A DNA stretch of 64,000 bases, taken from NCBI GenBank assembly GCA_001673575.1, contig LZME01000007.1, positions 21,545 to 85,544 of the forward strand. Reading direction: 5' to 3'. The notes under the pieces are model-generated. The model searched no databases. It was not told where the DNA came from and was given only the letters and a program-made list of their open reading frames with translations. The position numbers and the translations under genes are program-made. The DNA comes from Mycolicibacter heraklionensis (GTDB lineage: Bacteria; Actinomycetota; Actinomycetes; Mycobacteriales; Mycobacteriaceae). This document shows positions 10,204 to 41,336 of this stretch, piece after piece; position 1 is the stretch's first letter; every line of letters starts with the position of its first letter.

Positions 10204-10205
10204 AA

Positions 10206-10439: not shown

Positions 10440-10482
10440 GCCGCTACCCTACCGTTCGCCCTGGACCGGACCCGGCGCCGGG

Positions 10483-12500: not shown

Positions 12501-12507
12501 GATCGCG

Positions 12508-13545
<1,038 letters not shown>

Positions 13546-23078: not shown

Positions 23079-24356
23079 CTACAGCGCCCCGCCGAACTCG
23101 TCCGGCAACTGCGCGGAGGCGTCGAAGTCCTCCAAGCCGGTCAGCTCATGGCCCATCCGGTCGCGCTTGGTCAGCAGGTAACGGATGTTCTCCGAGTTGG
23201 CCCGCACCGGCAGCGGCACTCGCTCGATGATGTGCAGGCCGTAGCCGTCCAGCCCGACGCGCTTGGCCGGGTTGTTGGTGAGCAACCGCATCGAACGAAC
23301 ACCGAGGTCCGAGAGGATCTGGGCCCCGATTCCGTAGTCACGGGCGTCGGCCGGCAAGCCCAGTTTGAGGTTGGCGTCGACGGTGTCGTCGCCGGCGTCC
23401 TGCAGCTGGTAGGCCTGCAGTTTGTGCAGCAGACCGATGCCGCGACCCTCGTGGCCACGCATGTAGAGCACCACCCCGCGGCCCTCCTGCGCGACCATCG
23501 CCAGCGCCGCATCCAGTTGCGGGCCACAGTCACAGCGCCGGGAGCCGAAAACATCGCCGGTCAGGCACTCCGAGTGCACGCGCACGAGCACGTCGTCGCC
23601 GTCGTTGTTCGGCCCGGCGATCTCGCCGCGGACCAGCGCGACATGCTCGACGTCCTCGTAGATACTGGTGTAGCCGACCGCCCGGAACTCGCCGTGGCGG
23701 GTCGGGATGCGGGCTTCAGCGACCCGTTCGATGTGCTTCTCGTGCTTGCGCCGCCACTCGATCATGTCGGCGATGGAGATCAGGGCCAGGCCGTGCTCGT
23801 CGGCGAAGACCCGCAGCTCTTCGGTCTGGGCCATTGCGCCCTCGTCCTTTTGGCTGACGATCTCGCAGATCGCGCCGGCGGGCTGCAGGCCGGCCATCCG
23901 GGCCAGGTCGACCGCGGCCTCGGTGTGGCCCGGCCGACGTAGTACCCCGCCGTCCTTGGCGCGCAGCGGCACCACGTGACCGGGGCGGGTGAAGTCGTCG
24001 GCGACACTGCCCGGGTCTGCCAGCAGGCGCATTGTGGTGGCCCGGTCGGAGGCTGAAATCCCGGTTCCGACATTGTTTTTCGCGTCGACGGTCACGGTGT
24101 AGGCGGTGCCGTGCTTGTCCTGGTTCACCGCGTACATCGGCAGCAGGCCGAGCTTGTCGCAGATGGCGCCGTCCAGGGGCACACACAGATATCCGGAGGT
24201 GTAGCGCACCATGAACGCCACCAGCTCGGGGGTGGCCTTCTCGGCGGCGAAGATCAGATCGCCTTCATTTTCGCGGTCCTCGTCGTCGATGACGACGACG
24301 GCCTTGCCGGCCGCGATGTCGGCAACCGCCCGCTCGACGGTGTCCAACTTCGTCAT
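23079..24356 (-). CDS. ribBA: Bifunctional DHBP synthase / GTP cyclohydrolase II
   Basis: A 425-residue fusion opening two branches of riboflavin synthesis. The N-terminal RibB domain has [17 protein letters not shown] and [28 protein letters not shown]. The C-terminal RibA domain has the zinc motif [15 protein letters not shown] and [14 protein letters not shown] 24356 ([13 protein letters not shown]) has AAGGTGG 7 bases upstream and matches M. tuberculosis RibA2; the open frame continues 23 codons further upstream. It lies 97 bp after the displaced ribC tail, so it was probably co-transcribed with ribC before the element inserted. Confidence 0.97.
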
Positions 24357-24452
24357 CTGTGCCACCTTGGTTTCGCCGTCGGAAAGCGCCCCGTCGGCGC
24401 AACCCGCCCATCCAGTATGAACCACCCCAGACCCAGGGTTTGCCCCGTGGAC

Positions 24453-24499
24453 TCATTCCGTGGGCTTTGTCACCAGTCTCTCGACGTACTTGGCGAGTA
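24453..24499 (-). pseudogene. Displaced native 3' end of ribC
   Basis: Read on the minus strand, this stretch encodes LAKYVERLVTKPTE and a TGA at 24453-24455. That is the expected last part of riboflavin synthase: the intact ribC at 40718-41320 ends IAKYVERLLSRS. It lies in the correct orientation and position, just upstream of ribBA, and has no start or upstream coding sequence. It is best explained as the ribC tail cut off by integration of the 16-kb element. Confidence 0.85.
24480..24496. other. Left attachment-site half (ribBA side)
   Basis: CTCGACGTACTTGGCGA matches the right-hand copy at 40739-40755 in 14 of 17 positions, and the last seven bases (24490-24496) are identical. Sequence on the ribBA side is the native ribC tail; sequence on the other side is element DNA. 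The identical TTGGCGA is a plausible strand-exchange overlap for a tyrosine integrase. Confidence 0.7.
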
Positions 24500-24560
24500 G
24501 CCGAGAGCTATGCGGTGTGCTGACCAGCAGAAATGCAGGTTGGAACGCAGCGTTGTGGCA

Positions 24561-24575
24561 CAAATATGTTGAGCG
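24561..24575. repeat. 15-bp inverted copy of the right attachment region
   Basis: CAAATATGTTGAGCG is the exact reverse complement of 40737-40751 at the other end of the element. A third, 10-bp partial copy (AATATGTTGA) lies at 40647-40656 next to the right integrase. These could be integrase binding sites; the role is inferred. Confidence 0.6.
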
Positions 24576-24617
24576 CAGCTAAGTCGCTTCCCTGAACGGA
24601 AACGGAACCACCGCCAG

Positions 24618-25172
24618 ATGACCGCTCTCCACTCTGTCAAGTCCACCATCACCCCGGATGCCCACGACGTCACCGCCCGGTACTCCACCGGATCGCGTCT
24701 GTGGCTGACTACCTGTGTCTGCGGCTGGTGGGCCATGCCATGCCACACAACGGAGGAAGCCGACGTGCTCGGGGAACTCCACTACGAGCACGTGGCCGAC
24801 ATCCCCGGCGACTTGTCGGACGCGGCTGGCACCCTGCAGGCCATGACCGCCGCCCGACCCGATCTGGTGGACGTTGGGCCCGCCACACCCCCGCCCGCCT
24901 GGTTCCCGCCCGACGCATTGCCGGACTGGCAGGACCGCACCACGCAGCGCGGCGTCGAGCAATTCTGCGAATGGAGCCGCGACGTCGCCGACGGCGTGGC
25001 GATCGCATGCTCTGACGTCGTGGTCGCTGGCCGCGTGATGCGTTCCACGCCACGCGTCCACATGACCGACGAGCCCCCCGCCGCCGGCTGGACCGTCCAG
25101 CAGGCCCGGGAAGTGGCGGCCCGGATCATCGCCGCCGCCGACTTCATCGACCAGGCGTCGGTGATCGCATGA
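24618..25172 (+). CDS. Hypothetical element protein with C-x-C...H-x2-H finger
   Basis: A 184-residue protein of unknown function. Cys33, Cys35 (CVCGW), Cys42, His55 and His58 form a plausible zinc-binding site near the N-terminus. The C-terminal half is acidic/hydrophobic and ends with a helix containing VQQAREVAARIIAAADFID. Its stop overlaps the start of the left integrase by 4 bp (ATGA), so the two are translated together. It is the first element gene inside the left end. A DNA-binding or regulatory partner of the integrase is possible but unproved. Confidence 0.7.
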   Translation: MTALHSVKSTITPDAHDVTARYSTGSRLWLTTCVCGWWAMPCHTTEEADVLGELHYEHVADIPGDLSDAAGTLQAMTAARPDLVDVGPATPPPAWFPPDALPDWQDRTTQRGVEQFCEWSRDVADGVAIACSDVVVAGRVMRSTPRVHMTDEPPAAGWTVQQAREVAARIIAAADFIDQASVIA

Positions 25173-26212
25173 GCACAGCGAACGCCACGAACGCCGCGCG
25201 ACTCGCCCGCCAGCGTGCGCACCGCCTCGGCCTGCACTTCCATCAGACCGGGGCAATGGGCACGCTGACGGACTCGGACGGCACCGTACTGGCGCAAGGC
25301 CCGCTGGACGAGGTGAACGCCTACCTGGTGGCGCGGTCCAACCCACGGCCGTCGGGGCCAGCACCCATTACTAGCGCACCACCGGACTGGGTCGAATTGG
25401 TGGACGAATACCTGCGGACGCTGTCCGCGGCGGGACAGCGCCCCGGAAGTATCCGGCTACGCCGAATCCAGCTGTACCGAATGGCGCGGGAACTGAATTG
25501 TCCACCGGAGGGCGTGACCAGCGCGGCACTGCTGGGATGGTTTGGCCGCCAACAGGATTGGTCGCCGGAAGCGCGTCATTCATATCGATGTGCGGTGCGG
25601 GGATTTTTCGGATGGGCACACAAATTCGACCGCACCCCAACGAACTACGCTGCGGTCCTGCCAAAGGTACGGATTCCGAAGGCACCGCCACGTCCAGCAT
25701 CCGATCAAGCGTGGTCCACGGCAATGGCTGCGGCGTCGCCACGAGTTCGGCTGATGTTGCGGCTGGCCGGCGAGGCAGGGCTACGCCGCGCCGAAGTCGC
25801 CCAAGTGCACACCCACGACCTGATCGACCTCGACGGCAGGCCCAACCTCATCGTGAACGGCAAGGGCGGCAAGCGGCGCGTCCTCCCGATCACGGCCTCG
25901 CTCGCCGACGAGATCCGCGCCGGGGCGGCAGGGCACACTGCTGGCATGCAGCCCCGGGGGTACCTCTTCCCCGACGGTTCGGGTGGGCACATCACCGCCG
26001 ATCATGTAGGGCGGATGGTCAAAATGGTGCTGCCTCCAGGCTGGACAATGCACCAGCTGCGGCACAGGTTCGCCACCAAGGCTTACCGCGGTAGCGGGAA
26101 CCTGCGGGCGGTCCAGGACCTACTCGGCCACGAGTCCGTCGCAACAACCCAGCGATACACCGCCGTCGATGGTGACGAGCTGCGGGCAGCCATGCTGGCC
26201 GCGAGCGAATAG
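25169..26212 (+). CDS. Tyrosine recombinase/integrase (left copy)
   Basis: A 347-residue phage-integrase family protein. The catalytic set is visible: R206 (GLRRAE), H295 and R298 (HQLRH), H321 (LGHES) and Y330. A SAM-like N-terminal core-binding domain spans about residues 72-160. It lies about 0.7 kb inside the left end and points into the element. It is clearly different from the second integrase at the right end. Whether it or the right copy integrates the element at ribC cannot be told from sequence; it may come from a second, older element. Confidence 0.93.
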   Translation: MSTANATNAARLARQRAHRLGLHFHQTGAMGTLTDSDGTVLAQGPLDEVNAYLVARSNPRPSGPAPITSAPPDWVELVDEYLRTLSAAGQRPGSIRLRRIQLYRMARELNCPPEGVTSAALLGWFGRQQDWSPEARHSYRCAVRGFFGWAHKFDRTPTNYAAVLPKVRIPKAPPRPASDQAWSTAMAAASPRVRLMLRLAGEAGLRRAEVAQVHTHDLIDLDGRPNLIVNGKGGKRRVLPITASLADEIRAGAAGHTAGMQPRGYLFPDGSGGHITADHVGRMVKMVLPPGWTMHQLRHRFATKAYRGSGNLRAVQDLLGHESVATTQRYTAVDGDELRAAMLAASE

Positions 26213-26225
26213 GAGGATCGACAAC

Positions 26226-26825
26226 GTGGATCCCGAGACTGCCGCCGCACCGACGTCGGAGGTCGTGGCGGGCGAGCTGGCATGGGGAGCGGAGGCCGAG
26301 CCGGTCGAGATCGCGGCCGGTCCGTCGTGGCGGTTGGTGGTGTCGCTGGCCGCCAGCATCGTGGTGTCTGCCGTGCTGCTGGTCGGCGCCGTATGGTCCT
26401 GGACCCACCAGGTCGCTAGCGAATCGGCTAGCGAGTCGCTAAGGGGAACAACAACTTCCGCCTCGGCAATTGAACCACCCGTCACGCCGCCTCCACCGCC
26501 CAGCACCACCACGGTGGTGGCGGCACCTCCCGTAACCGTGACGGTCACGCCGCCGCCCGCCGCACCGGCGGTTCCGTCGCCGCCGGCCCACTCCGGTGTC
26601 GACGCCGCGTTCCTCGCCGAAGCGCACGCCGCCGGCACCGTCTCCAGCGCGGGCGACGACGACACCATCGACCTGGCGCACGTCGTGTGCGGCGACCCCA
26701 CCGACGGCCTCACCCTGCAGGAGGAGGCCGACGTTCTCCAACGGGCAACGGGCTGGAGCGCGCCGGCCGCCCGCAGCTTCGTCTACATCGCCGTCACCCA
26801 CTACTGCCCCACCCGAGGCCGCTGA
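26226..26825 (+). CDS. Membrane-anchored DUF732 protein
   Basis: A 199-residue protein from GTG 26226, which has AGGAGG nine bases upstream. It has a short cytoplasmic segment, one membrane helix (about residues 36-57, VVSLAASIVVSAVLLVGAVW), and a Pro/Thr/Val-rich linker. It ends in a DUF732-type domain with VDAAFLAEAHAAG, a Cys in HVVCGD and VTHYCPT. DUF732 is typical of exported mycobacterial proteins; function is unknown. Its presence on a mobile element next to an integrase suggests cargo that acts at the envelope. Confidence 0.8.
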   Translation: MDPETAAAPTSEVVAGELAWGAEAEPVEIAAGPSWRLVVSLAASIVVSAVLLVGAVWSWTHQVASESASESLRGTTTSASAIEPPVTPPPPPSTTTVVAAPPVTVTVTPPPAAPAVPSPPAHSGVDAAFLAEAHAAGTVSSAGDDDTIDLAHVVCGDPTDGLTLQEEADVLQRATGWSAPAARSFVYIAVTHYCPTRGR

Positions 26826-26881
26826 GTGCGAACAATGCGGCCAGCGCCGGGCCGCTCACCGAATAACGGCATGATGAGCCG

Positions 26882-27439
26882 GTGTGCGTACGCGGAATAT
26901 CCGGGCTTCTTGAGGTACTGGCTCACTGGCCGTGGGCGACCATCGCCGCGTTCCTAGCAGCTGCGGCGACCCTGTACGTGGGCCAGTCACAAATCAACGA
27001 ACGACGCCGACTCGTCGGGCGTGAGGCCATTGCGCAATTGAGCGCTGCCGTTCAAGGCTGGATTTCCGCGTCTTACCGGCTGCGCCATCAGAACGTCCCA
27101 GACTCACGGTCCGAATACCGGCAAGCAGCCGAAAACCTGTCCCGGGCAATCCTCGCCGTCAAGATGACGTGCAATGACGCAGAGCTAGTGCGTCACCACG
27201 GACTGATGCTCGTGGCGGCCACGGACTTTTCGGAGCGCGTCCAGGCTGCGTTGAGCAGTTCCGCAGACGAGCTCAGCGAACCGGACGCCGCCGTTCTGGA
27301 CGCGCTGGCCAACGATTTGGACACATCTTTCAAGGGCGTTCTCCTACGTGCCCTGAACGTGTACATGGAGCCCCCTCGTTGGCGTGATCGAATTCCTCAG
27401 TGGCTGCGCGACAGGCCACCAACTCCCGAGCAGGACTGA
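26882..27439 (+). CDS. Membrane-anchored hypothetical protein
   Basis: A 185-residue protein from GTG 26882. One hydrophobic helix lies near the N-terminus (WATIAAFLAAAATLYVG, about residues 18-34), followed by a mostly helical cytoplasmic domain with RLVGREAIAQLSAAVQGW and DTSFKGVLLRALNVYM. No family is recognised. It is the last rightward gene in the left arm, facing the small HTH gene. Position and architecture resemble accessory prophage genes that affect the host envelope or other phages, but this is inference only. Confidence 0.65.
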   Translation: MCVRGISGLLEVLAHWPWATIAAFLAAAATLYVGQSQINERRRLVGREAIAQLSAAVQGWISASYRLRHQNVPDSRSEYRQAAENLSRAILAVKMTCNDAELVRHHGLMLVAATDFSERVQAALSSSADELSEPDAAVLDALANDLDTSFKGVLLRALNVYMEPPRWRDRIPQWLRDRPPTPEQD

Positions 27440-27446
27440 CGATCGG

Positions 27447-27629
27447 TCAGCAGATCCCGTTAGCGCGCCATCGCTCCAGCGCCGACAATTCACGGCCGCG
27501 GTGAACGATCGCGTGCACCGATGCGGGGCTCCGTAGCCCCACTGCTGCCGCCACCTGCCGGTAGGACTTGCCGGCCGCCACGAGGCGCCGGATCCGCTGA
27601 TCCCGCACCCGCCGCTGTGCCGCTTTCAC
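27447..27629 (-). CDS. Small helix-turn-helix protein
   Basis: A 60-residue basic protein whose centre, RIRRLVAAGKSYRQVAAAVGLRSPASVHAIVHR, has the spacing of a resolvase/sigma-type HTH. It is small enough to be a stand-alone DNA-binding regulator. It converges on the membrane protein gene (8 bp between stops). Upstream of its start is the 1-kb non-coding block with palindromes, which could be its target. Confidence 0.65.
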   Translation of the reverse strand: MKAAQRRVRDQRIRRLVAAGKSYRQVAAAVGLRSPASVHAIVHRGRELSALERWRANGIC

Positions 27630-28181
27630 ACCCTTGATTGTGCCGGAAAAATGCGGTCCAAAACCGAACAGTCAGCACATCCGGTGGCACCGCCGAAAAC
27701 GCCCCTCTACCTGCACCGATCCTCCGGACCGTCTCCGGCCATTTCGCCGAATGCGATTTCCACTTTTTCTCGGGGGGAGAGCAAGCGAGTGCCGGGCGGA
27801 GGCGCCTCGGCCTCTTCCGCACACTTTCGACCCGCCCCCCTCCTGCCGCCTGGCACTCGGGTTGGTTGGGGTGGCGTTGGGGGCTGGCTTGCCTGGTGTG
27901 GGGCGTTGGGCTGGTGGTTGGACTGGTGTGGCTGCGCGCGGTGCGGCGCGGCAGAAGCGATCGTGTGGCATCTTCCGGATGGTGGCGTGCGGTGGTGCGC
28001 TGGCATCGCGTGGGCCGCTTAGTTCAGGTCGGTCGGTGTGCGGGTGCGCGGCTCAGTGATGGCCGGTTCGGGCGGGGCCGGGAGGCGGGGCCACTCAGGA
28101 ACGAGCCGGGCGGTGAGGGCCACGAGGGCAGTGGCGGCAGCTGAGCGGCTCATCCGCCATGCAAGGTCAATCAGCAGCTGA

Positions 28182-28206
28182 ATCGTGCTGCGAGTCGCAG
28201 CACGAT
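28182..28206. repeat. 12-bp perfect inverted repeat with 1-nt spacer
   Basis: ATCGTGCTGCGA (28182-28193) and its exact complement (28195-28206) flank a single G. The flanking CAGCTGA and CAGTTGG extend the symmetry imperfectly. Either a hairpin or a dimeric-protein binding site in the element's non-coding block. Confidence 0.7.
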
Positions 28207-28493
28207 CAGTTGGGCGGGCCGGCGCATCGCGGCCTCAGCACCAGGCTCTCGGACAGCGTGATCTTCGAGCACCATTGATGCCCGCGTCGCTCGGTGCCGG
28301 GCCGTGGCCCACCAGCGCGGGGCACCAGGGTGGCGCGGAATGGGGGCATGCAGGCGACACGCAAAGGTCGCGTCGGATCGCGTGCTGCTGCATCAGCCGC
28401 TGCCGATCGGTTGATCAGCAGGTCTTTGCTACACCTTTGCTTTGACGCACTCGACCAGCCTGCCCTCAGATGGGTCACGCCCGCGCGCGAATG

Positions 28494-28539
28494 CCCAGCT
28501 CACGGTAGGTGTACCGCGGTACAGCTACCGTGAGCTGGG
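28494..28539. repeat. 46-bp near-perfect palindrome
   Basis: Outer arms CCCAGCTCACGGTAG (28494-28508) and CTACCGTGAGCTGGG (28525-28539) are exact complements. The centre TGTACCGCGGTACA (28510-28523) is a perfect 14-bp palindrome. Only the single base pair between arm and centre (28509/28524, G and G) breaks the symmetry. With no spacer it can form a 22-23-bp cruciform. It lies about 100 bp beyond the stop of the leftward gene at 28644. A terminator, replication or recombination site are all possible. Confidence 0.85.
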
Positions 28540-28643
28540 ACGGGGCCGGCGGAGGCCGCCGGGAGCGGAGGCGGGGGTGGGGGATCGCGCATCGCTCGCG
28601 GGCTGGTCTCGGTAGCGGAGCGCGGGCCGCCGCCTTCGGTTGC

Positions 28644-29357
28644 CTACCTGGGTTTGTCGGGAAACTTTCCCGTCAACCAGTTGAAGCTAATGGCATCTCT
28701 TGCGCCGTGCTCTACGAGCGCAGATTCCGATAACTCAGTCAGCGATCCGGCGGCGTTGCGGCGCCAGTGAGTGCCGCGGGTGTCCGTGAAGGCGATGGAT
28801 GCGTTCTCGACTACGTCAAACGCGATCTCTTCGCCAGCGTCACTAAGGGGCCCTCGGACCCGGGTCAATGATTCACCAGGTGGCAGGAATCGCACGAAAA
28901 CGTGCCCGGCGACGGGTGCATCAGCGCCCCTGATCTTGAAGCGCAACGTGACCACGACGTCGTAGACGACGGCATCGGAACTGTTGAGGAGTGCAACCCA
29001 TTCAGGCGGAGCAGTGAATGCGCCTCCAGTTGCCTCGGGGCCACGAGGATTGACCACCCACGCCGTCACACGGTCGGCCTGCTGGCGGTGTTCCAACCAC
29101 TTCCGTGTCCGAGCCTCCTTGGACGCCGCCCGCAGAGCCACCGCGACCGCAGCGGTTGTGCCAATGGCGGCGAGCCATGTCGGCACATCACCCCACTGCG
29201 TCCGACCAGCGCTCATCCCCGTCACCGCGACTATCGACAGCAAGAGTGCAAACAGGGCGGCCAGGACACTCACCCAGACCGCCACCCGTTCGAGCCCCTC
29301 GGCAACAGTCTGCTGCGCACGTCGAACCGCCAGTCGTTCTCGCTGTTCTCGGCGCAT
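28644..29357 (-). CDS. Two-helix membrane protein of unknown function
   Basis: A 237-residue protein with a basic N-terminus and two hydrophobic helices (about residues 25-50 and 60-80). A soluble beta-rich C-terminal domain follows (PPEWVALLNSSDAVVYDVVVTLRF, HVFVRFLPPGESLTRV). Not a recognised phage structural protein. It follows the tape-measure gene by 48 bp on the same strand and is the last leftward gene before the non-coding block, a usual place for accessory genes. Function unknown. Confidence 0.7.
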   Translation of the reverse strand: MRREQRERLAVRRAQQTVAEGLERVAVWVSVLAALFALLLSIVAVTGMSAGRTQWGDVPTWLAAIGTTAAVAVALRAASKEARTRKWLEHRQQADRVTAWVVNPRGPEATGGAFTAPPEWVALLNSSDAVVYDVVVTLRFKIRGADAPVAGHVFVRFLPPGESLTRVRGPLSDAGEEIAFDVVENASIAFTDTRGTHWRRNAAGSLTELSESALVEHGARDAISFNWLTGKFPDKPR

Positions 29358-29405
29358 CGCGCCTGAGAATATCGGACCCTGCGGGCAATCGAATCGGATC
29401 CGGGG

Positions 29406-33959: not shown

Positions 33960-33981
33960 GTCTCACCTCGTCTCTACGGCG

Positions 33982-34038
33982 AAGGGGGCGGTGACGCCAT
34001 CTGCGGGGGCACTACTCCCCGACATCACCGCCCCCCTT
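33982..34038. terminator. Hairpin upstream of the tape-measure gene
   Basis: AAGGGGGCGGTGA (33982-33994) pairs with TCACCGCCCCCCTT (34025-34038) with one bulged base. The loop contains a GGGGCACT motif (34006-34013) that is repeated elsewhere in the element. It lies in the 188-bp gap between the prohead protease and the tape-measure start, so the tape measure probably forms a separate transcription unit. Confidence 0.6.
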
Positions 34039-34147
34039 ACCTTTTGGCACTGGGCAACACAACCCACCAGGGTGTTTCATGCCCCTGCCGGCCGAAAGGA
34101 GTTAACGCGCCGGCAGAGTCTTTAATCAGGCCGTCCAAATCACGGCA

Positions 34148-35158
34148 TCATTTCCAAGGTCGATAACTCGGGTTCATGTAGGCCACGGCGTCGCGGCGAT
34201 CACGTTGCCGCGCCAGTTCTCGCTCCGCCTCCGCACGGCGGACCATCTCCTCCACCACCGCCCGCTGATGCGGAAGAATGGAATGGATGCCGAGGTCCGC
34301 GGGGGTAATCCGCCCCGGGTCAACACAGCCGATGGATTTAGGGGTGACGCGGCCATTGACCAAACCGGGGACCGGTGGGAACCCCAGGACCTCCTCAGCG
34401 CGCGCCAGAATGTTCCGGCCGATCGCCTGCCGAGCCCGATACACCGATGCGTCGTAGGCCATCTGCTTCTCTGCCTCCTCGCGCGTCATCAATGGTTTCC
34501 CGGAACGGCGGTTCGACCGGTTCGCCCGCTTGGCATCGGCAAGCATGATCGCTTCCATCTCAGCTCGGGTCAACGTCTTCTTCACGCCATTCCTGCCCTT
34601 TCTCCGCTTACCGAGAACCTCGGCGACAGTCGTCGGGTTTGCTCCCCAATTAACCACCGACACATCGCCTTTGTGCAGCGACACCTCGGTGATGGTGCGC
34701 TGACTCTGCGGGTCGTCATAGCCCGGCGCGGCTGACCAAGTTTGTGCCTTGACCCTGAATGCGAACGACATCTCGTTCATGTCGCCGCGCCGCATCTTGG
34801 GTTCCAGCTGCTGCACGTCCGGGTCAGACCGGTCAAGTTCAGCCCGCACCTTCAACCCGTGGTCATCGACCGACAGTTCAAGGGTGCCGGACCCGGTACG
34901 GGCCAGCGGGAGCCCTTCATGGTTGACCAACAAGTGCAGGTCCGGCTGCTCTCGCAGCGTCCGATCGAAGGCATTGCGGCCGATCTGCTCGATCCAGCCG
35001 CAATTCGCTGGCCCGCCATACATTTCGTAGGGCTCGAACGTTGCGGCGTAGCCGATCAGCGTCACGGTGCCGCTGTCCGCACGAAACTCGAACGGCGCCG
35101 CAGATCGCAGCTCTCTGACGTCCAGGAGTGCCTGGCGATTTTTGGGGGTTATAGTCAC
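34148..35158 (-). CDS. HK97-family prohead protease (with C-terminal extension)
   Basis: A 336-residue protein. The N-terminal 180 residues are an HK97-type prohead protease: LIGYAATFEPYE near residue 35, catalytic-type His80 in LLVNHEGLPLAR, Ser131 in MNEMSFAFRV, and EVSLHKGDVSVVNWGANP. The C-terminal half is a basic, helical extension without recognised similarity. Such proteases mature capsids, but no capsid gene follows here; in phiRv1 a capsid gene does. The start overlaps the preceding gene's stop by 4 bp (ATGA). It may act on a helper phage's capsid or remain from a former head operon. Confidence 0.9.
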   Translation of the reverse strand: MTITPKNRQALLDVRELRSAAPFEFRADSGTVTLIGYAATFEPYEMYGGPANCGWIEQIGRNAFDRTLREQPDLHLLVNHEGLPLARTGSGTLELSVDDHGLKVRAELDRSDPDVQQLEPKMRRGDMNEMSFAFRVKAQTWSAAPGYDDPQSQRTITEVSLHKGDVSVVNWGANPTTVAEVLGKRRKGRNGVKKTLTRAEMEAIMLADAKRANRSNRRSGKPLMTREEAEKQMAYDASVYRARQAIGRNILARAEEVLGFPPVPGLVNGRVTPKSIGCVDPGRITPADLGIHSILPHQRAVVEEMVRRAEAERELARQRDRRDAVAYMNPSYRPWK

Positions 35159-35442
35159 CGGCTCCCCCCGTCCCCAGATCCCCGCGCCGGCAGGAACGCG
35201 CCCAAGTCGGTCACCGGAACTTCCCAGGTGCCCGCTGCCTCCCGGACCGCGAGCGCATCCGGGTCATTGCGCAAGTGCTCAGGGATCGCGGAATCGACGC
35301 CCGTGACGTACCTCAGCGCCGCCGCCGCGCGCTCGGCCAATTCGGGGTCCCAGCCTCCGAGCCAGGTGAAAGCCTCCACTACCCGCTCTGGGTCGGCCTT
35401 CGCGACGGCCCTAACCGCCGCCACCACATCCGTCGCACTCAC
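35155..35442 (-). CDS. Small hypothetical phage protein
   Basis: A 95-residue acidic protein (VVAAVRAVAKADPERVVEAFTWLGGWDP, then EHLRNDPDALAVREAAG) with no recognised domain. It has 4-bp ATGA overlaps on both sides: with the HTH gene before it and the protease after it. This places it in the protease operon. Similar small acidic proteins occur beside the protease in phiRv-type elements, but I assign no function. Confidence 0.7.
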   Translation of the reverse strand: MSATDVVAAVRAVAKADPERVVEAFTWLGGWDPELAERAAAALRYVTGVDSAIPEHLRNDPDALAVREAAGTWEVPVTDLGAFLPARGSGDGGSR

Positions 35443-35819
35443 CGTTCACCCCCAAGGACAGCCAGTACGTCGGGGCGCGGAATCCACCACTGCCCGCGGA
35501 TCTTCCGAGCTGCCAGCGCGAGCTTCCCCCGTCTGCAGGACTTCCGAATACCGTCAGCAGAGATTCCCATCAGACCGGCCGCCTCCTCGACACTCAACAA
35601 CTGTTCCTCGTTAGCGTCCGTCATGCCTCCAGAATCCGGTCGTATCGTCGTGTCTGCGCGACCCCGAGCGCGACCCACGTACTCCGCCAGGTCCCCCTTC
35701 AGCCGGGCAACCTCAAGCGGCAGCGGGAGGCCATCACGACGCATGCGCCGCTCCAGATCTTCGATGGCAGACTGCAACAGCGCCGACTCGCGCACATCAG
35801 CACAGAAAAGCTCACGCAC
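35439..35819 (-). CDS. HTH (excisionase/MerR-like) DNA-binding protein
   Basis: A 126-residue protein with a helical N-terminal half (MRELFCADVRESALLQSAIEDLERRMR). Its C-terminal winged HTH reads LLSVEEAAGLMGISADGIRKSCRRGKLALAARKIRGQWWI, the pattern of the HTH_17/excisionase family. It is a candidate recombination directionality factor or regulator for the element. It overlaps the gene before it by 8 bp and the gene after it by 4 bp. Confidence 0.75.
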   Translation of the reverse strand: MRELFCADVRESALLQSAIEDLERRMRRDGLPLPLEVARLKGDLAEYVGRARGRADTTIRPDSGGMTDANEEQLLSVEEAAGLMGISADGIRKSCRRGKLALAARKIRGQWWIPRPDVLAVLGGER

Positions 35820-36159
35820 CGGCGGCCCACCTGTCGACCTCGGGACTACGCGGCAGCCACACCCCAGCGGCGTCCAGAATCAGCTCGACGCCCGGGAATA
35901 GTTCACCTGTCCGAAACCTCAAGACCGCCAGCCAATCCCGCGTGTTGATACGAGCCGCCGACTCCCCCGACCGGCGTCGGGCAGCACGAAACACCTCCGC
36001 AGGCAGATCCGCAATCCGCTGCGCACCCGTCGCCTGGATCTCCCCCACAGTTAATCCGGTAAACAGTGAGATCGCTTGGTGGGACCAGAGCGGCTCACCG
36101 CCGGTCCGGAGCACCAACGGCATGCACCGACCCTCGCGCGGTATGTCGACTTCCTGCAT
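35812..36159 (-). CDS. Hypothetical phage protein
   Basis: A 115-residue protein with QAISLFTGLTVGEIQATGAQRIADLPAEVFRAARRRSG and NTRDWLAVLRFRTGELFPGV. No domain is recognised. Its ATG shares a base with the stop of the WhiB-like gene (TGATG), and it overlaps the HTH gene by 8 bp, so it is part of the same operon. Confidence 0.65.
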   Translation of the reverse strand: MQEVDIPREGRCMPLVLRTGGEPLWSHQAISLFTGLTVGEIQATGAQRIADLPAEVFRAARRRSGESAARINTRDWLAVLRFRTGELFPGVELILDAAGVWLPRSPEVDRWAAGA

Positions 36160-36536
36160 CAGTGCCCCTCCTCGTCGACGAGGAGCCCGGCTACGACGCC
36201 CGTCGGCCGCTCACGGGCGGGCAACGCCCCAACCCACGCCGAGCACGCCGCCAACGCGGGGCAGTCGGCGCACATCTCGATGGCCTGCTGGTGCCGTTCG
36301 GCGGCACATTGCTCGGGTTCTCCAGCGCCCCGCGGGTCGAACAACGACCACAGGCCTAGACAGGCCGCACCGCGCAGATGGGGCGTCAACACCGACGCCG
36401 CCATCGTGTTCAGGAACTTCTCGCCGGCCGACAGCGTCGGTCGCAGGACTGGGCCCAGATGCAGCTGACGCCGTCGGCCAGCCGCGGCCTGGCGCTGCCG
36501 ATATGCGCGCGTGCGCTCAGCACTGCTCATGCTCAC
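36159..36536 (-). CDS. WhiB-like iron-sulfur regulator (phage type)
   Basis: A 125-residue protein from GTG 36536, which has GGGAGG 7-8 bases upstream and overlaps the preceding stop (GTGA). The WhiB cysteine pattern is present: C59-x29-C89-x2-C92-x5-C98. These four ligate a 4Fe-4S cluster in WhiB proteins. The usual GVWGG turn is degenerate (TGVVAGLL) and a basic tail is missing. Mycobacteriophage WhiB homologues such as TM4 gp49 block host WhiB2 and exclude other phages; this one may act similarly or regulate the element. The N-terminus (ERTRAYRQRQAAAGRRR) is basic. Confidence 0.75.
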   Translation of the reverse strand: MSMSSAERTRAYRQRQAAAGRRRQLHLGPVLRPTLSAGEKFLNTMAASVLTPHLRGAACLGLWSLFDPRGAGEPEQCAAERHQQAIEMCADCPALAACSAWVGALPARERPTGVVAGLLVDEEGH

Positions 36537-36775
36537 CGCTCGACCTCCCGCTGGTGGCGGGGCTCGCCGAAATCGACCGGCGGGTCCGGCGCATCGTCGG
36601 CGCATTGCGCCGGCGAGGCCTCGCTGACTCGGGGCCTGGCAACGCACGGGACGCGCCGCACCCGACCGTCAGGCCGCGAACACCACACGCCGGGGTCTGC
36701 GGCGCAGTTCGGGCACGGTAGCGCCGAGTCGACATCGGCGTACGCGGCCCAGATCGCCTCGCCGGACCTGCTCAT
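36533..36775 (-). CDS. Small Zn-ribbon-like phage protein
   Basis: An 80-residue protein with CPNCAADPGVWCSRPDGRVRRVPCVAR, a cysteine pattern (C-x2-C-x8-C-x11-C) expected to bind zinc. Similar short proteins occur in mycobacteriophages. It starts the operon that runs through WhiB, HTH and protease genes, and lies just downstream of the GGGGCACT repeat block. Role unknown. Confidence 0.7.
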   Translation of the reverse strand: MSRSGEAIWAAYADVDSALPCPNCAADPGVWCSRPDGRVRRVPCVARPRVSEASPAQCADDAPDPPVDFGEPRHQREVER

Positions 36776-36810
36776 CGGAACCTCCCTTGACCTGCGGTGT
36801 TGGTGGTTTC

Positions 36811-36894
36811 AGTGCCCCTAGTGCCCCTTCGTCGGTATGAGCTCTTAGGTGTGCGCGCGTAGGGGGAACCAGGAAAAGGGGCACTTGGGGCACT
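36811..36894. promoter_or_regulatory. Four GGGGCACT/AGTGCCCC motifs in an inverted repeat
   Basis: AGTGCCCC occurs at 36811-36818 and 36820-36827. Its complement occurs at 36878-36885 and 36887-36894. The two 19-bp arms 36811-36829 and 36876-36894 are complementary except one position. The tandem copies are spaced 9 bp apart, like iterons or cooperative operators. The block sits between the primase-helicase and the downstream WhiB/protease operon and includes the primase stop codon. Further copies are at 36161-36168 and 34006-34013. Confidence 0.7.
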
Positions 36895-38317
36895 AGTCGG
36901 CGTCATGGCCGTCTCCGTCCTCGGGCTTTAGCGCGATCCCGAGCCGCCACTTTTTGCCGTTGGACCGGTGGACTGCGTAGCCCTTGAGGTCGAGGGCTTG
37001 CCCGAATGCCTTGAGGCTGAGTGGTTCGGCGCCGTCGGCTGCCCGCCACCTGTCCCAGGCGTCGAATAGCTGCGATGTGGTGGCCTTGACCGCGGGACTG
37101 GTGTTGCAGCACTCAGCGATGAATCGGCCGACCGCGTCGCTAGCAAGCTGATAGGCGTCGGTGGCCGCCATGACGCTTGGTGGCTCGTCCAGGCCGCCGC
37201 GTTGGCGGTAGTCGGCCCAGCCCGCCAGCATCCACGCCAGCACGCCGTCCGCCTCCGCTTGAAGCCGCTCATCCAGATGTGGATCTCGTTCGGCGGGCGG
37301 GATCTCGACTCCGAAGGGTATGACGCGGATTCGGCGCCAGATCGCCGGATCATCGCCCGAGACCTTTGGCAGGTGGTTTGTAATAAGCAGCGGCAGGTGA
37401 GCCGGCTCGAACTCGAAGAAATCCTGACGCATTCGTCGCGCACGAATGGTGTCGCCGCCCGTCAGCCGCTTCATCGTGGCTTCGGCGAGCCGCCGATCCC
37501 GCTCCGACTCCGAGACGACGATCAGGCGACGCCCCATCAGGTCCGCTTCCCCCGTTGGGTGGGCCCCTTCTCGATGCATGAACAGGTCAGGCTCGGCGGT
37601 ACTGGCGTAGTCGCCCAGCGCATGGCAAAACGCCTTGTACGTAACGCTTTTTCCGTTGGCGCCCGTGCCTGTCAGGATTGGAAGGATGTGCTCGGTGACC
37701 CGACCCAACAGTGCTACGCCCGCGAGGCGCTGCAGATAAGAGCGGACATCGTCCGCCGGTATGACGCGCTCGATGTGGCCCCGCCATGTCGCATCGCCAG
37801 GTGCATCGTGATGGGCGGCGCGGGCCACTTTGGTGATGCGGTCCCGCGGGTCGTGCGGCGCTAACGTCAGCGTCCGAAGGTCCAGGGTTCCGTTGGCGAG
37901 ATTCAGCAGGTAGGGATCAGCATCCAAGTCCTGCACTGTCGCGGCGAACTGCTCCAACGCAGCCGCCACCCCCAGCACCCCTTGGATTCCGTTGTGGGAC
38001 TCGCACTTGCGAACATCTGTGCGCAGCGATCGGTCGCCATCATCGCCCACGGAATCCACCAGCGCAGTTCGCAGCACCTCCAGCACCGCACGCGATGCCG
38101 CCCCACGGGTATCGAGCACCCAGCGGGCGCCGTCCCAGGTGTGCCAGCCCAACGCGTGCACGTGTAGCAACTTGTCGGCGTAGGCCTCGGCCAACCGGTA
38201 AGCCATCCGAACTTGTCCCGAATGCCGTTCAACCGGCGGATCAACTACCGCGCTGCTCGTCGGCGCGTACTTCCCCGAGCGGACCAGCTCCTCACCGCGA
38301 AGTTCATCCTCGGTCAA
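36893..38317 (-). CDS. Phage/plasmid primase-helicase (D5/P4 family)
   Basis: A 474-residue protein. A D5_N-type domain spans about residues 40-205. It is followed by an SF3-helicase ATPase domain with Walker A GTGANGKS (217-224), the Walker B region MGRRLIVVSESE, and motif C-like LPLLITNHLP. The C-terminal winged-helix part (SLKAFGQALDLKGYAVHRSNGKKWRLGIAL) fits the family. It probably unwinds and initiates replication of the excised element. phiRv1 has an equivalent gene at the same relative position. It overlaps DUF2742 by 14 bp. Confidence 0.9.
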   Translation of the reverse strand: MTEDELRGEELVRSGKYAPTSSAVVDPPVERHSGQVRMAYRLAEAYADKLLHVHALGWHTWDGARWVLDTRGAASRAVLEVLRTALVDSVGDDGDRSLRTDVRKCESHNGIQGVLGVAAALEQFAATVQDLDADPYLLNLANGTLDLRTLTLAPHDPRDRITKVARAAHHDAPGDATWRGHIERVIPADDVRSYLQRLAGVALLGRVTEHILPILTGTGANGKSVTYKAFCHALGDYASTAEPDLFMHREGAHPTGEADLMGRRLIVVSESERDRRLAEATMKRLTGGDTIRARRMRQDFFEFEPAHLPLLITNHLPKVSGDDPAIWRRIRVIPFGVEIPPAERDPHLDERLQAEADGVLAWMLAGWADYRQRGGLDEPPSVMAATDAYQLASDAVGRFIAECCNTSPAVKATTSQLFDAWDRWRAADGAEPLSLKAFGQALDLKGYAVHRSNGKKWRLGIALKPEDGDGHDAD

Positions 38318-38705
38318 TGCGCACCCCCGCCCGACGTGCGTCCTCGCGGGCCCGCAGCTCGCGGGCTACATGAGTCCAATCCGCGGACGCAGCAATGGAT
38401 TTAGCTGCTTCGGCTTGGGCTAGCTGAGCTGTCTCGACCCGCAGGGCGTGGTGCCGCGCGAAATCCAACAGCCCGGCCCACTTCGCCCGGGAGTCGTCTG
38501 GCAGCCGGGACCATGCCGGGGTTCCCGGCGCGGGGTAGTCACCGACCGTATCGAGGAACGGCTGCACCCACTGATGCACCGACCACCAGTTCACTTGCCG
38601 ACTCGTTACAGCGTCGGTAGCTTCGATATCGGTTGAGTTGGTTGGGGACGGCTGGGCGGCAGTGACTTCTCCCGGCCGTCTTTTTTCATCAGGCACCGGC
38701 AGCAC
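38304..38705 (-). CDS. DUF2742 phage protein
   Basis: A 133-residue protein whose core, VNWWSVHQWVQPFLDTVGDYPAPGTPAWSRL and KWAGLLDFARHHALRVETAQLAQAEAAKSIAASADW, matches the DUF2742 family found in phiRv1/phiRv2 (from memory). Function unknown. It lies directly upstream of the primase and overlaps genes on both sides by 14-17 bp. An internal GTG at 38696 is an alternative start. Confidence 0.85.
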   Translation of the reverse strand: MLPVPDEKRRPGEVTAAQPSPTNSTDIEATDAVTSRQVNWWSVHQWVQPFLDTVGDYPAPGTPAWSRLPDDSRAKWAGLLDFARHHALRVETAQLAQAEAAKSIAASADWTHVARELRAREDARRAGVRIDRG

Positions 38706-38967
38706 CCGCCTTGCGTGCCCGACGAGCTTTCGCCGACTTCAGCGCCAGTGCCGCGAAATACGCTTTGCGCGCGGACTCGGCACGCTTTGCACGTTCGGTC
38801 GGGGGCAGCGTCCCGTCAGGATCTACCTGGTGTTCAAACCGTAGGTTGAACTTCGCGCGGGCGTTGCGGGTCCGTGCGGACCGATCATCGGTATTCGCCC
38901 AGGAGACATGCGCCCCGAGCTGCCCACGCAGCTTTCGTTCGTTTGGTGTTAACCCGCTTTCGGGCAC
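38689..38967 (-). CDS. Small phage protein (phiRv-type)
   Basis: A 92-residue basic protein with LTPNERKLRGQLGAHVSWANT, FNLRFEHQVDPDGTLPPTERAKRAESARKAYFAALALKSA and an Arg/Lys/Ala-rich tail. This architecture is common in mycobacterial satellite elements and phages; function unknown. The N-terminal part resembles DNA-binding helical proteins. It precedes DUF2742. Confidence 0.75.
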   Translation of the reverse strand: MPESGLTPNERKLRGQLGAHVSWANTDDRSARTRNARAKFNLRFEHQVDPDGTLPPTERAKRAESARKAYFAALALKSAKARRARKAGAAGA

Positions 38968-39119
38968 GGTTCGTCAGCCTCTCGCTGGCGAACCCCCCTA
39001 CCCATGACGGGAGTTCCGGCCTTCGTGCATCCCGCACTGGAGCTGACCGCCCTCGCAGGCGACGCTTGGCCACAACTTCAAGCACAGCGTACCTCAGCGG
39101 TGTGCTACGCCCGCAAACC

Positions 39120-39743
39120 CTACGGGTTTTGACGGTAGTTGGCCGCGCGTAGCCGTTCGAACTCCTCGATCGACATCGCATCCATCTTCAACCGAGATAC
39201 CTTTTGACTGGCAACAGTTTTCGTCGGCAGGTACTCGTATGCTGGCGGCCCGTACTCCAAGTGTTTCCCGGTCGGCGTCACCATGTGCCTTGCGTGCCGC
39301 TTACGCAGGGCCTGGAGGATCTCGAGCCGGTTTCCGACGCAGTCGCCGTGACGCGCGCAGCGCATAAGCAGATCCGGGTAGTCGGGCGTGAATTCGATGG
39401 GCAGCGCTAGGAGTGCGATCACCCCGTGGCGCAGCGAATTCATCGGCCTGCCGGATTCCGATACGACATCCTCGTGGTCGGCGTTCCATCGCTCGAGTTG
39501 ACGCGGCCGCAATTCCTGGCCTTCGACCCTGATGGACACTCCCCCGGCACCTGTCGGTACCGTCCACGACGATGAGAACAACGCCCCGAACCCAGGAATG
39601 TCCCCCGAATATGCAAGTAGTGCATTGCATTTCGTGCAGCGCACCTGCAATGTCGGCCTCAATCTGTCATCGGCACTTGCTCGCACGGCAGCGGCAGTGC
39701 GCTCACGCACGGCCGGATCGCTCGGTTCAAGTCGCAGCATCAC
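39120..39743 (-). CDS. Hypothetical element protein with Cys motifs
   Basis: A 207-residue protein. CTKCNALL (about residues 35-42) and CARHGDC (about 128-134) could form a zinc site. The C-terminus is basic, MDAMSIEEFERLRAANYRQNP. The ATG overlaps the stop of the right integrase by 4 bp (ATGA), so it is made together with the integrase and may be a regulator or cofactor of recombination. No family recognised. Confidence 0.65.
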   Translation of the reverse strand: MMLRLEPSDPAVRERTAAAVRASADDRLRPTLQVRCTKCNALLAYSGDIPGFGALFSSSWTVPTGAGGVSIRVEGQELRPRQLERWNADHEDVVSESGRPMNSLRHGVIALLALPIEFTPDYPDLLMRCARHGDCVGNRLEILQALRKRHARHMVTPTGKHLEYGPPAYEYLPTKTVASQKVSRLKMDAMSIEEFERLRAANYRQNP

Positions 39744-40642
39744 AGCTCCCCCAGGTTGAGACCGCGGGCTTCGGCTGCGGCACGCTCCGCGGCTGACGCC
39801 GTGGTGTACCGGTCAAGCATCGAGCGAGAGGACCACCCCGCGACCGCCATGAGGCCCTGCTCTGATCCGCCGGCGCGTAGCCATCGCGTTGCCGCCGTCG
39901 ACCGCAGCAGGTGAACATGGAACCCGGTGATGCCGGCGCGTTCGGCGCGGATCTTGAGTGCCCGGTCCAAGCCGTGGTATCCCAGCCCTTGGCCGTTGCC
40001 GCCGAGCCACATCACCGGTGTATCGGCGAGCCGATGTCCTCGCCGCAGGCGAAGGTAGCGGTCGACGGATGCGGCCGTTTGCGGCCCGAACGGGACGACG
40101 CGGCCTTTACCGCCCTTGCCGCGTCGCACGACGGCGATGCCACGTGCGACGTCGATGTCGTCGGGCAGCGTCATGCCGAGCAGCTCCCCCGCTCGGACGC
40201 CCGTCTCGGCCATGAACCGGATGACGGCCTCGTCGCGGCGGTCGATGAAGTCCTTACCAGCGCACGCCTTGATCAGCGCCTTGAGTTCGTCGTCGCTCAG
40301 CGCCTGCGTGACCTTGGTGTCCAGCTTCGGCGGGTCCAGGCCTGCCAGAGGGTCGGAATCCAGCTCCCCCTCGTCCACCAGCCACTTCACGAACCGCCGC
40401 ATGGACTGGTGGCGACTGCGGGCTGTCGCGGCGGCCGCACCGCCGTCCAGCAGATCGACGGTGAACGCCTGCATATTGGTCCGGGTTATCTCCGGCGCGG
40501 TGCCTCTGTTCTCGCACCAGCGCAGGAACGCCAGGACTCCTTCCCTATAGGCGGAGACGGTGGCTTCCGACTTCCGCTCGGCCCGTAGCGACAGTCGCCA
40601 CGAGTCGAGTAGCGCGCGCAGATCCAGCAAAGACTCGCCCAT
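39740..40642 (-). CDS. Tyrosine recombinase/integrase (right copy, beside attachment site)
   Basis: A 300-residue integrase from ATG 40642. The core-binding domain spans residues 1-105. Catalytic residues are R150 (GVRAGE), H244 and R247 (HLLRS), W270 replacing the second His as in some recombinases, and Y279 (DRYTT). The open frame continues 22 codons upstream without conservation. It lies about 100 bp from the ribC attachment site, the position expected for the enzyme that integrated this element. Repeats resembling the attachment core lie just before its start. Confidence 0.93.
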   Translation of the reverse strand: MGESLLDLRALLDSWRLSLRAERKSEATVSAYREGVLAFLRWCENRGTAPEITRTNMQAFTVDLLDGGAAAATARSRHQSMRRFVKWLVDEGELDSDPLAGLDPPKLDTKVTQALSDDELKALIKACAGKDFIDRRDEAVIRFMAETGVRAGELLGMTLPDDIDVARGIAVVRRGKGGKGRVVPFGPQTAASVDRYLRLRRGHRLADTPVMWLGGNGQGLGYHGLDRALKIRAERAGITGFHVHLLRSTAATRWLRAGGSEQGLMAVAGWSSRSMLDRYTTASAAERAAAEARGLNLGEL

Positions 40643-40717
40643 AGCGAATATGTTGACACAGAGCGCTGTACTTGCGTGGTAGCCTCGCCGAGACGGGCAA
40701 AGCCGCACGTCAAACCA

Positions 40718-41320
40718 TTAGGAACGGGATAGCAACCGCTCAACATATTTGGCGATCACGTCCACCTCGAGATTCACCACCGTGCCGACCGGCGCCCGGC
40801 CCAGAGTGGTCAGTTCCAGGGTGGTCGGAATCAGCGAGACTTCAAAGAAGTCGTCGGGGTCGGCACCCAGTCCGGAGACCGTCAGCGAGGTTCCGTCCAC
40901 GGTGATCGAGCCCTTCTCCACCACGTAGCGCGCCAGCGACGCCGGCAGCCCGATTCGCACCACTTCCCAGTGCTGCCCGGGGGTGCGGGACAGCACCCGC
41001 CCGGTGCCGTCGACGTGCCCCTGCACGATGTGGCCGCCCAGCCTGCTGTTCAGAGCGGCCGCACGTTCCAGGTTCACCGGGCTTCCGACCTGCAACGATC
41101 CCAGGCTGGACCGCTCCAGCGTCTCGCGCATCACGTCGGCGCTGAACCGGCCGCCGGCCTGCACATCGACGACGGTCAGGCACACGCCGTTGACGGCGAT
41201 CGAGTCGCCGTGGCGGGCGTCGGAGGTGACGGTGGGGCCCTGGATGACCAGGCGCGCAGCGTCGGCGAGGTCCTCGCGGCCGACCAGCTCCCCCAGCTCC
41301 TCGACGATTCCGGTGAACAT
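40718..41320 (-). CDS. ribC: Riboflavin synthase (alpha chain), tail supplied by the element
   Basis: A 200-residue enzyme that dismutates two lumazines to riboflavin. It has the duplicated beta-barrel pattern: MFTGIVEELGELV at the start, DSIAVNGVCLTVVDV, GGHIVQGHVDGTG, then the second repeat VEKGSITVDGTSLTVSGL and VSLIPTTLELTTLG. ATG 41320 is chosen because MFTGIVEE is the universal N-terminus; two GTG codons precede it. The last residues YVERLLSRS come from the integrated element and keep the enzyme complete. In M. tuberculosis the order ribD-rpe-rsmB-fmt lies nearby as here. Confidence 0.96.
   Translation of the reverse strand: MFTGIVEELGELVGREDLADAARLVIQGPTVTSDARHGDSIAVNGVCLTVVDVQAGGRFSADVMRETLERSSLGSLQVGSPVNLERAAALNSRLGGHIVQGHVDGTGRVLSRTPGQHWEVVRIGLPASLARYVVEKGSITVDGTSLTVSGLGADPDDFFEVSLIPTTLELTTLGRAPVGTVVNLEVDVIAKYVERLLSRS
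40739..40755. other. Right attachment-site half inside ribC
   Basis: CTCAACATATTTGGCGA lies within the last codons of ribC. It equals the left copy except three positions, all codon-third bases when read as ribC. TTGGCGA (40749-40755) is identical on both sides. Sequence left of this point, including the ribC stop, is supplied by the element. Confidence 0.7.
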
Positions 41321-41336
41321 CACCACAGGCTAGCGA

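Follow-up and report, generated by a model that had tools for sequence, protein, structure and literature searches.

Does a small chromosomal element that encodes a complete phage tape-measure protein (TMP), and neither capsid nor terminase, live as a satellite of other phages, or is it what remains of a larger prophage? This question is raised by a 64,000 nt-long stretch of contig LZME01000007.1 of Mycolicibacter heraklionensis (the window, in the following), in which an earlier reading of the letters alone (the sequence-only reading) had proposed a phage satellite that looks functional and brings its own TMP at 24490..40755. Our analysis bears this view out. The element is very probably an integrated phage satellite, as judged from its sequence features, which include recurrent att-bounded relatives of 15-16 kb and a TMP under purifying selection. 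With less assurance, though still at better than even chances, we consider it a cos-packaged satellite of siphophages of the Typha/Bipper/prophiGD43A-5 type, which would make chimeric particles with its own TMP.

Boundaries and gene content

The ends of the element are two 7-bp TTGGCGA repeats (Table 1) separated by 16,259 bp, and the flanking genes are ribA2 (23079-24425, minus strand) and ribC (40718-41326, minus strand). The coordinates of the sequence-only reading proved exact, because they coincide with these repeats, a ribC remnant is present, and ribC adjoins an integrase of the type found here (INT1) in 7/20 relative loci (own locus counted). L235 (genome G149; loci of our survey carry L numbers) is a different ribC-integrated element, whose integrase is 91% identical to INT1 and which shares the left arm AGCTCTCGGCTA with the window, beside a ribC remnant. 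We also noticed that a 15-nt stretch at the 3' end of ribC, CAAATATGTTGAGCG (40739-40753), has an exact inverted copy at 24561-24575, just inside the left end, possibly an integrase binding site. As a separate observation, L235 encodes (9126-13306) a 591-aa protein 44% identical to the minor tail protein of prophiGD43A-5, plus a weak terminase homologue, and is possibly a satellite carrying a tail-tip protein. Neither an Rfam nor a tRNA scan gave any match in the window.

To characterize the gene content, 16 structural-family profiles from Typha-type phages, including terminase, portal, protease, capsid, connectors, terminator, tail tube, chaperone halves, TMP and tail tip, were searched across the six frames of the element. 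The sole matches were the TMP (613 bits), the protease (317 bits) and a peptide of the tail-chaperone T half (20 bits); the terminase, portal, capsid, connector, tail-tube and tail-tip families were not found in the element. A PHROGs scan of 19 open reading frames (ORFs) of the element and its boundaries (ORF 38689-38967 lay outside the scanned set) likewise gave no terminase, portal, capsid, holin or separate lysin, so that the lack of terminase, portal, capsid, lysin and holin genes noted before was reproduced. The integrase, primase-helicase, DUF2742, HTH and prohead-protease genes named in the sequence-only reading were recovered by family searches; its WhiB gene fell below the Pfam cut-off and has phage WhiB-like relatives in PHROGs. 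A second recombinase (INT2), the cos site, the divergent C-terminus of the protease and the chaperone-type peptide were absent from that reading. An integrase, a regulator, att sites and an incomplete set of virion genes, the general features of a phage satellite, are all present.

Related elements

Relatives of the helicase were found in 54 of 297 genomes of the genus, and relatives of the TMP N-terminus and of the protease in 12 and 29 of 396 genomes, respectively; genes were mapped at 7 of the 13 TMP N-terminus places and at 15 of the 31 protease places (L231 lay outside the mapped set). In genome contigs, TMP relatives were found at four loci with an alignment query and at none with a single-protein query. 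A megablast search returned no near-identical copies among phages.

Eight elements were taken as kin by an HTH regulator, one head gene and a ~100-bp cos-like site: the window element, L064 (M. hodleri), L076 (M. peregrinum), L077 and L078 (two elements in one genome), L079 (Mycolicibacterium sp.), L090 (15,299 bp, a contig in IMG/VR) and L223. The HTH regulator is present in all eight, as is the head gene, which is a protease, a capsid or a fusion, and seven have a TMP. The protease gene is directly followed by the TMP gene in the window, L064, L076, L090 and the fragment L239; the order in L079 is protease, chaperone G half and TMP, while in L077 and L078 a capsid gene precedes the TMP. The P4-type helicase occurs in two and DUF2742 in three of the eight, and the replication part therefore varies.

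The seven elements with defined ends measure 15,236-16,259 bp (mean 15,797 bp, standard deviation 369 bp) and occupy five kinds of site. Besides the window element, direct repeats delimit L064 and L079 (both tRNA-Pro, 15,959 bp att to att), L076 (tRNA-Val, 16,104 bp), L077 (tRNA-Phe, 15,547 bp), L078 (15,515 bp) and L223 (tRNA-Arg, 15,236 bp). The lengths of L064 and L079 are identical though their TMPs are only 41% identical. The sequence-only reading had proposed to look for the same gene set at 14-18 kb in other mycobacteria, and the elements with defined ends indeed span 15.2-16.3 kb; it had also held that the same genes within a 40-60-kb prophage would speak for a deletion remnant, and the closest whole-element relatives are att-bounded and 15-16 kb long. 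The nearest single-gene relatives occur in phages and in prophages of 67-103 kb as well, but in those a major capsid gene comes after the protease. In addition, a further element (L228 3558-19998), satellite-like and with a TMP-like gene of 1170 aa, adjoins L078 in the same genome, and elements may thus stack in tandem.

Packaging site

The record ends of the phages Typha and Bipper have conserved blocks in common. A 17-mer from these ends was found at 27824 in the window with 2 mismatches and in L076, L077, L078 and L223 with 2-3; the chance expectation per element, from 30 simulations, is 0.00 for ≤2 and 0.13 for ≤3 mismatches. A profile made from Typha, Bipper, L076, L077, L078 and L223, which excluded the window, matched the putative cos site of the window with 26.5 bits (E 9.3e-6), compared with 8.1 bits for the best of 40 shuffled windows, and also picked sites in L079, L090 and prophiGD43A-5. 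For L064, the match was noise at first (9.5 bits) and reached 19.3 bits after one extension round that included the window and excluded L064. With leave-one-out profiles, the site of the window scored 33.4 bits against 12.3 for the top shuffle, and all eight elements beat all shuffles, L064 narrowly (14.4 vs 12.0). When the profile was restricted to Typha and Bipper, the best match in each of the eight elements was again the same site, and with a profile of nine phage sites six of the eight beat the shuffles (window, 21.5 vs 10.0). All eight elements have the cos-like site in the same position, on the strand that carries the core genes. Among non-satellite IMG/VR protease loci, 16 of 77, Typha and Bipper among them, show a cos-like site at E ≤ 0.01.

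Upstream of cos, a ~200-aa protein is encoded in L076 (12744-13346), L079 (3999-4607), L090 (11081-11701) and L223 (4889-5518). The L076 copy was scanned against PHROGs and gave no match; the protein could be packaging-related.

Tape-measure protein

The TMP frame contains one stop, at its end, while the other five frames contain 16-45. Together with the TMP_3 and phrog_9228 matches (Table 1), this agrees with the full-length tape measure of 1517 residues and the intact reading frames described before. The ratio of nonsynonymous to synonymous substitutions (dN/dS) was 0.114 for L077 vs L078 and 0.179 for L219 vs L220 (elements described below); by this measure, the TMP is under purifying selection.

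Its nearest phage relatives include Typha, Bipper, prophiGD43A-5 and helper-type prophages such as L125. Between helper-type phages, the tail-tube protein is 74-99% and one tail-tip protein 77-100% identical, and the TMP is not conserved. The sequence-only reading had suggested that the satellite TMP might set tail length. This found no support, as the 1517 aa of the window TMP match the lengths seen in Typha (1527 aa), Bipper (1561 aa) and prophiGD43A-5 (1565 aa), with that of L076 shorter (1289 aa); tail length is therefore probably not what changes. Compatibility or competition in assembly, escape from factors directed against the helper TMP, or an entry module would be better candidates for the gain.

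The survey comprised 78 TMP loci, of which 9 were gene-mapped and 19 yielded a TMP for comparison, 11 of these being included in a tree with 20 rows. None of 200 bootstrap trees joined the seven satellites in one clade, and the starred branches force at least three satellite/phage label changes. The TMPs of the window and L090 pair with each other, and the TMP of L079 shares 70% identity with its Bipper counterpart, above its identity to any satellite TMP. This mixing and the L079-Bipper identity suggest that satellites repeatedly acquire their TMP from helper-type phages.

Prohead protease

The catalytic part of the window protease (residues 1-181) is 62-69% identical to the enzymes of Bipper, Typha and prophiGD43A-5. 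Its C-terminal part was compared between five satellites (window, L064, L076, L079 and L090) and five helper-type phages. The phage C-termini matched each other at 1e-9 to 1e-39, and those of the window, L064, L076 and L079 gave mutual matches in 4/6 pairs at 5e-12 to 0.002 (window-L064 5e-12, window-L076 2e-8, L076-L079 2e-7), whereas matches between satellites and phages were confined to 9 residues where the two domains meet. In 80 IMG/VR loci, the next recognized gene downstream of the protease was a capsid gene in 67 and a TMP gene in 3, with none recognized in 10, which were partly short contigs and partly not. The three loci with a TMP, namely L090, L116 (the same element as L076) and L239, are all of the satellite type.

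In lambda-like phages, the protease C-terminus overlaps the scaffold gene. Because of this overlap, we propose a role in head size for the satellite protease, whose divergent C-terminus would probably direct the assembly of a small head, suited to a genome of ~16 kb.

Proposed mechanism and alternatives

According to the mechanism that we favor, INT1 would move the element into and out of the 3' end of ribC, the element providing a new ribC 3' end. Upon helper infection, the regulators of the HTH and WhiB types and the P4-type helicase would lead to replicating circles, and the helper terminase would package DNA from the helper-like cos site found in the satellite. Capsid, portal, connectors, tail tube and tail tip would come from a siphophage of the Typha/Bipper/prophiGD43A-5 type. 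The satellite protease, combining a catalytic domain that fits the helper with a different C-terminus, would yield the small head, and the conserved helper tail-tube protein would polymerize round the satellite TMP to about the normal tail length. The TMP would bring its own peptidoglycan-peptidase-like module for entry, and the 39120-39743 protein may steer the tail-tube protein to the satellite TMP or off that of the helper.

A more far-reaching version appears possible, if short of probable: the satellites would bring both assembly rulers and take almost all other parts from the helper, the exchanged, scaffold-like C-terminus of the protease would be a new capsid-size switch, the TMP and the chaperone-tail fusion would redirect the helper tail tube, and TMPs would be taken repeatedly from the current helper group. 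In that case, TMP and cos type together would report the phage exploited.

Several observations weigh against the favored mechanism. A Typha-type helper prophage was not found in the assembly of the window, where no portal was matched and the one capsid match, on a different contig, was weak (28% identity, E 1.6e-7). With the Typha and Bipper profile, only 4/8 elements scored above all 320 shuffles, and the window did not (10.2 vs 10.8). With the nine-site profile, L064 (6.3) and L090 (7.4) stayed under the top shuffle (10.0), and this control is not fully independent because 6/9 phage sites came from a profile that included the window. The comparison of protease C-termini covered five plus five sequences with low-complexity and composition filters off, and the C-terminus of L090 matched neither satellites nor phages; in whole-length searches, the L090 protease aligns to residue 252 of the window protein. 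L223 has cos and a protease-capsid fusion and lacks a TMP. The TMP of L090 and the capsid of L077 are each split over two frames, so that some elements may be decaying. Finally, the chaperone-type peptide treated next gave E-values of only 0.3-0.5 with single sequences and was found in 1/8 elements (next best E 0.17).

This peptide, KMDAMSIEEFERLRAANYRQNP, is the C-terminal end of the 39120-39743 protein. A very similar one lies near the end of the T half of the tail chaperone in GD43A-5, Bipper, Typha, L124 and L125, and among 50,697 phage records searched at E ≤ 10 it matched four, all tail assembly chaperones (two records of Bipper, Cracklewink and prophiGD43A-5). For the whole protein, nine pattern matches were obtained in IMG/VR, none of them confirmed. 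We regard the peptide as a clue that falls short of proof. Placed on an unrelated body, it would also suit a competitor, and the TMP, the protease and the peptide-bearing protein could then be decoys that poison head and tail assembly of the helper, with satellite particles made of helper protein throughout. Blockers of tail assembly that act on the TMP are known, namely Tab of a prophage (PMC10884400) and Rta of PLE11 (PMC12987554), one of the phage-inducible chromosomal island-like elements (PLEs), and the TMP is the variable part in helper phages with conserved tail tube and tip. However, a whole ruler of 1500 residues with conserved ends and a peptidase-like module would be costly as a decoy, and the TMP of the PLE satellite is described as entering the particle, its deletion cutting transduction (PMC12987554); on balance, interference of this kind seems unlikely.

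The entry module of the favored mechanism corresponds to a peptidase-like HxxGxAxD segment near residue 1200 of the window TMP, where a solved 129-aa protein (PDB 9flh) matches at 4.5e-15. Typha, Bipper and prophiGD43A-5 have a DCSG-type segment instead, and of the seven cos-type satellite TMPs two are of the HxxGxAxD and five of the DCSG type. The DCSG segments of TMPs we take to be NlpC/P60-like, and HxxGxAxD is presumably a mark of a peptidase family as well. This difference, and TMP lengths that equal those of helpers and hence place the gain elsewhere than in length, would also fit a TMP kept for entry, its peptidase-like and membrane-facing segments enabling satellite particles to inject into hosts in which the helper TMP works poorly or is blocked. 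Yet some helper-type prophages (L125 and L124) share the HxxGxAxD type, so that the module may merely mirror the helper present locally; we consider entry adaptation quite unlikely to be the main purpose.

Least likely is a deletion remnant that persists by chance, derived from a prophage of the Typha/GD43A-5 type by loss of everything that separated protease from TMP and of most other genes: protease and TMP are homologous to phage genes that lie in the same order ~5 kb apart, and frame-broken genes occur in some elements, but one and the same protease-TMP junction is shared by five diverged elements with different att sites and nearly constant size, the HTH and DUF2742 proteins match 0/50,697 phage records at E 1e-5, the helicase is 37-40% identical to the listed phage proteins compared with up to 74% between elements, the C-terminal domain of the protease is unlike that of five phages, and the TMP is under purifying selection. 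We rejected it as the main explanation on account of the recurrent junction, the element-specific HTH and DUF2742 proteins and the selection on the TMP; a defective Typha-type prophage should have all its remaining genes from that phage type, and these two have no phage match.

Other features of the element

The features of the element are compiled in Table 1. A second tyrosine recombinase at the end opposite the att-proximal integrase was noticed in the window (25169-26212), L064 (1553-2398), L076 (15870-16745), L079 (1091-1972) and L090 (14295-15299). Beside this INT2-type recombinase and its small partner gene lies a tRNA-Met gene in L076 (15327-15403), L079 (1008-1085) and L090 (13650-13724); the window has no tRNA gene. 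Two nested elements, considered in view of the two integrases, were rejected because L064 and L076 hold both recombinases within one pair of att repeats. Defence cargo was rejected as well, PADLOC having given no more than one match, at 0.0079.

Table 1 Features of the integrated element in the M. heraklionensis window
Feature	Position	Strand	Evidence
attL core TTGGCGA, in leftover ribC 3' end	24490..24496	.	sequence; L235 arranged alike
184-aa protein, translationally coupled to INT2	24618..25172	+	ORF; weak phrog_25312 match, 8.6e-5; no Pfam or PADLOC match
Second tyrosine recombinase (INT2)	25169..26212	+	PF00589, 4e-23; 51-54% identical to second recombinases of L064 and L076
DUF732 protein, accessory	26226..26825	+	PF05305, 1.8e-13, on longer ORF 26169-26825; start 26226 is that of the gene caller
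185-aa protein with N-terminal hydrophobic stretch, accessory	26882..27439	+	sequence; no Pfam match; in PADLOC only RmrA, 0.0079
Putative cos (packaging) site, Typha/Bipper type	27757..27848	-	profile match (see Packaging site)
237-aa protein with hydrophobic segments, accessory	28644..29357	-	sequence; no Pfam or PADLOC match
Tape-measure protein (TMP), 1517 aa	29406..33959	-	TMP_3, 1.8e-20; phrog_9228 (tape measure), 1.5e-78
HK97-type prohead protease	34148..35158	-	PF04586 (Peptidase_S78), 9.3e-29; TIGR01543, 1.9e-22
95-aa protein	35155..35442	-	ORF; no family match
HTH_17 regulator or excisionase-like protein	35439..35819	-	PF12728, 1.4e-6; tblastn in 8/8 elements
115-aa protein	35812..36159	-	homologues in L064 and L090
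WhiB-like protein	36159..36647	-	phrog_9926, 5.7e-7; Pfam WhiB, 5e-4, 20.9 bits (cut-off 23.6)
P4/D5-type replication helicase	36893..38317	-	PF08706 (D5_N), 3.8e-24; TIGR01613 (P4-type primase), 4e-88
DUF2742 protein	38304..38705	-	PF10888, 1.6e-31
92-aa protein	38689..38967	-	related proteins in further mycobacterial elements
207-aa protein with cysteine pairs and C-terminal tail-assembly-chaperone (T half) peptide	39120..39743	-	profile, E 1.5e-4
Tyrosine integrase INT1, ribC-targeting family	39740..40708	-	PF00589, 1.4e-24; ribC beside relatives
attR core TTGGCGA, in 3' end of functional ribC	40749..40755	.	sequence

Comparison with known satellites

The sequence-only reading knew of no description of a satellite that brings its own TMP. 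The PLEs of Vibrio cholerae, however, have been reported to do so, building chimeric tails on the satellite TMP (PMC12987554, 2026, Nature). As in the PLEs described there, the element studied here has, from sequence alone, a TMP of near-helper length and chaperone-related protein(s), and the other virion proteins would be mostly those of the helper. Unlike the siphophages considered here, the PLE helper ICP1 is a contractile-tailed phage, and PLE11 is described as encoding a complete putative chaperone and a baseplate hub protein (PMC12987554), genes that we did not find in these elements when compared by description (no match of the window element to the Typha-type tail-tip families). Conversely, the mycobacterial elements differ from PLEs in having a prohead protease and a helper-like cos.

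With the capsid-forming phage-inducible chromosomal islands (cf-PICIs), the element shares the integrase, the regulator and the size range, and some cf-PICIs reportedly carry putative tmp genes, according to the legend of Extended Data Fig. 10 of PMC12987554. Whereas cf-PICIs are described as encoding terminase, portal and capsid (PMC10690885), the window element has none of these three by six-frame profiles and PHROGs. Four other mycobacterial genomes contain cf-PICI-like elements (L219 2071-9797, L220 10958-18714, L221 767-9653 and L230 9603-17000), in which a TMP-like gene of 1116-1143 aa (weak TMP profile matches) stands beside terminase, portal and protease; att repeats were not found for these four. 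The feature of cos-type PICIs, a helper-like cos within the element, is present, although more weakly with the Typha and Bipper profile alone; as to their other feature, a capsid smaller than that of the helper, the near-constant element length is no more than suggestive.

The proposed role of the protease resembles that of the capsid-size switchers CpmB, Ccm and Rcm of Staphylococcus aureus pathogenicity islands (SaPIs), satellite proteins described as changing capsid size through likeness to, or competition with, a protein of helper head assembly (PMC12409344, PMC8569155); here, the size change is a proposal. Ccm is a capsid homologue, as are the head genes of L077 and L078, and no SaPI switcher listed in these two papers is a prohead protease.

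Candidate PICIs of Mycobacterium have been defined by an integrase and a major capsid gene (PMC10654092), a definition by which a capsid-less element would be missed, and the term 'tape measure' is absent from the main text of that paper. The window element has in common with these candidates and with phiRv1/phiRv2, as described there, the host genus, the integrase, the replication helicase and, in its relatives, tRNA att sites.

The resemblance to phiRv1/phiRv2 assumed in the sequence-only reading holds in part. phiRv1 and phiRv2 contain a prohead protease and a capsid gene along with DUF2742 and a P4-type helicase; protease, DUF2742 and helicase are shared by the window element, and the capsid gene is absent from it.

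Among open-licence PMC papers, we found none on a mycobacterial satellite that lacks a capsid gene and combines protease, TMP and cos. Satellites that bring a TMP of their own are a known kind, while the combination of genes and the host group appear to be new. If the mechanism presented here is true, mycobacterial satellites retain just one head gene and the TMP, a class that surveys based on capsid genes would overlook, and the named phages Typha and Bipper are candidate helpers. It raises the questions of why a satellite has its own TMP at unchanged tail length and whether a protease with an exchanged C-terminus can change capsid size. Tails built on a satellite TMP would then not be peculiar to the PLEs of V. 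cholerae, and would have a parallel in the satellites of mycobacterial siphophages.

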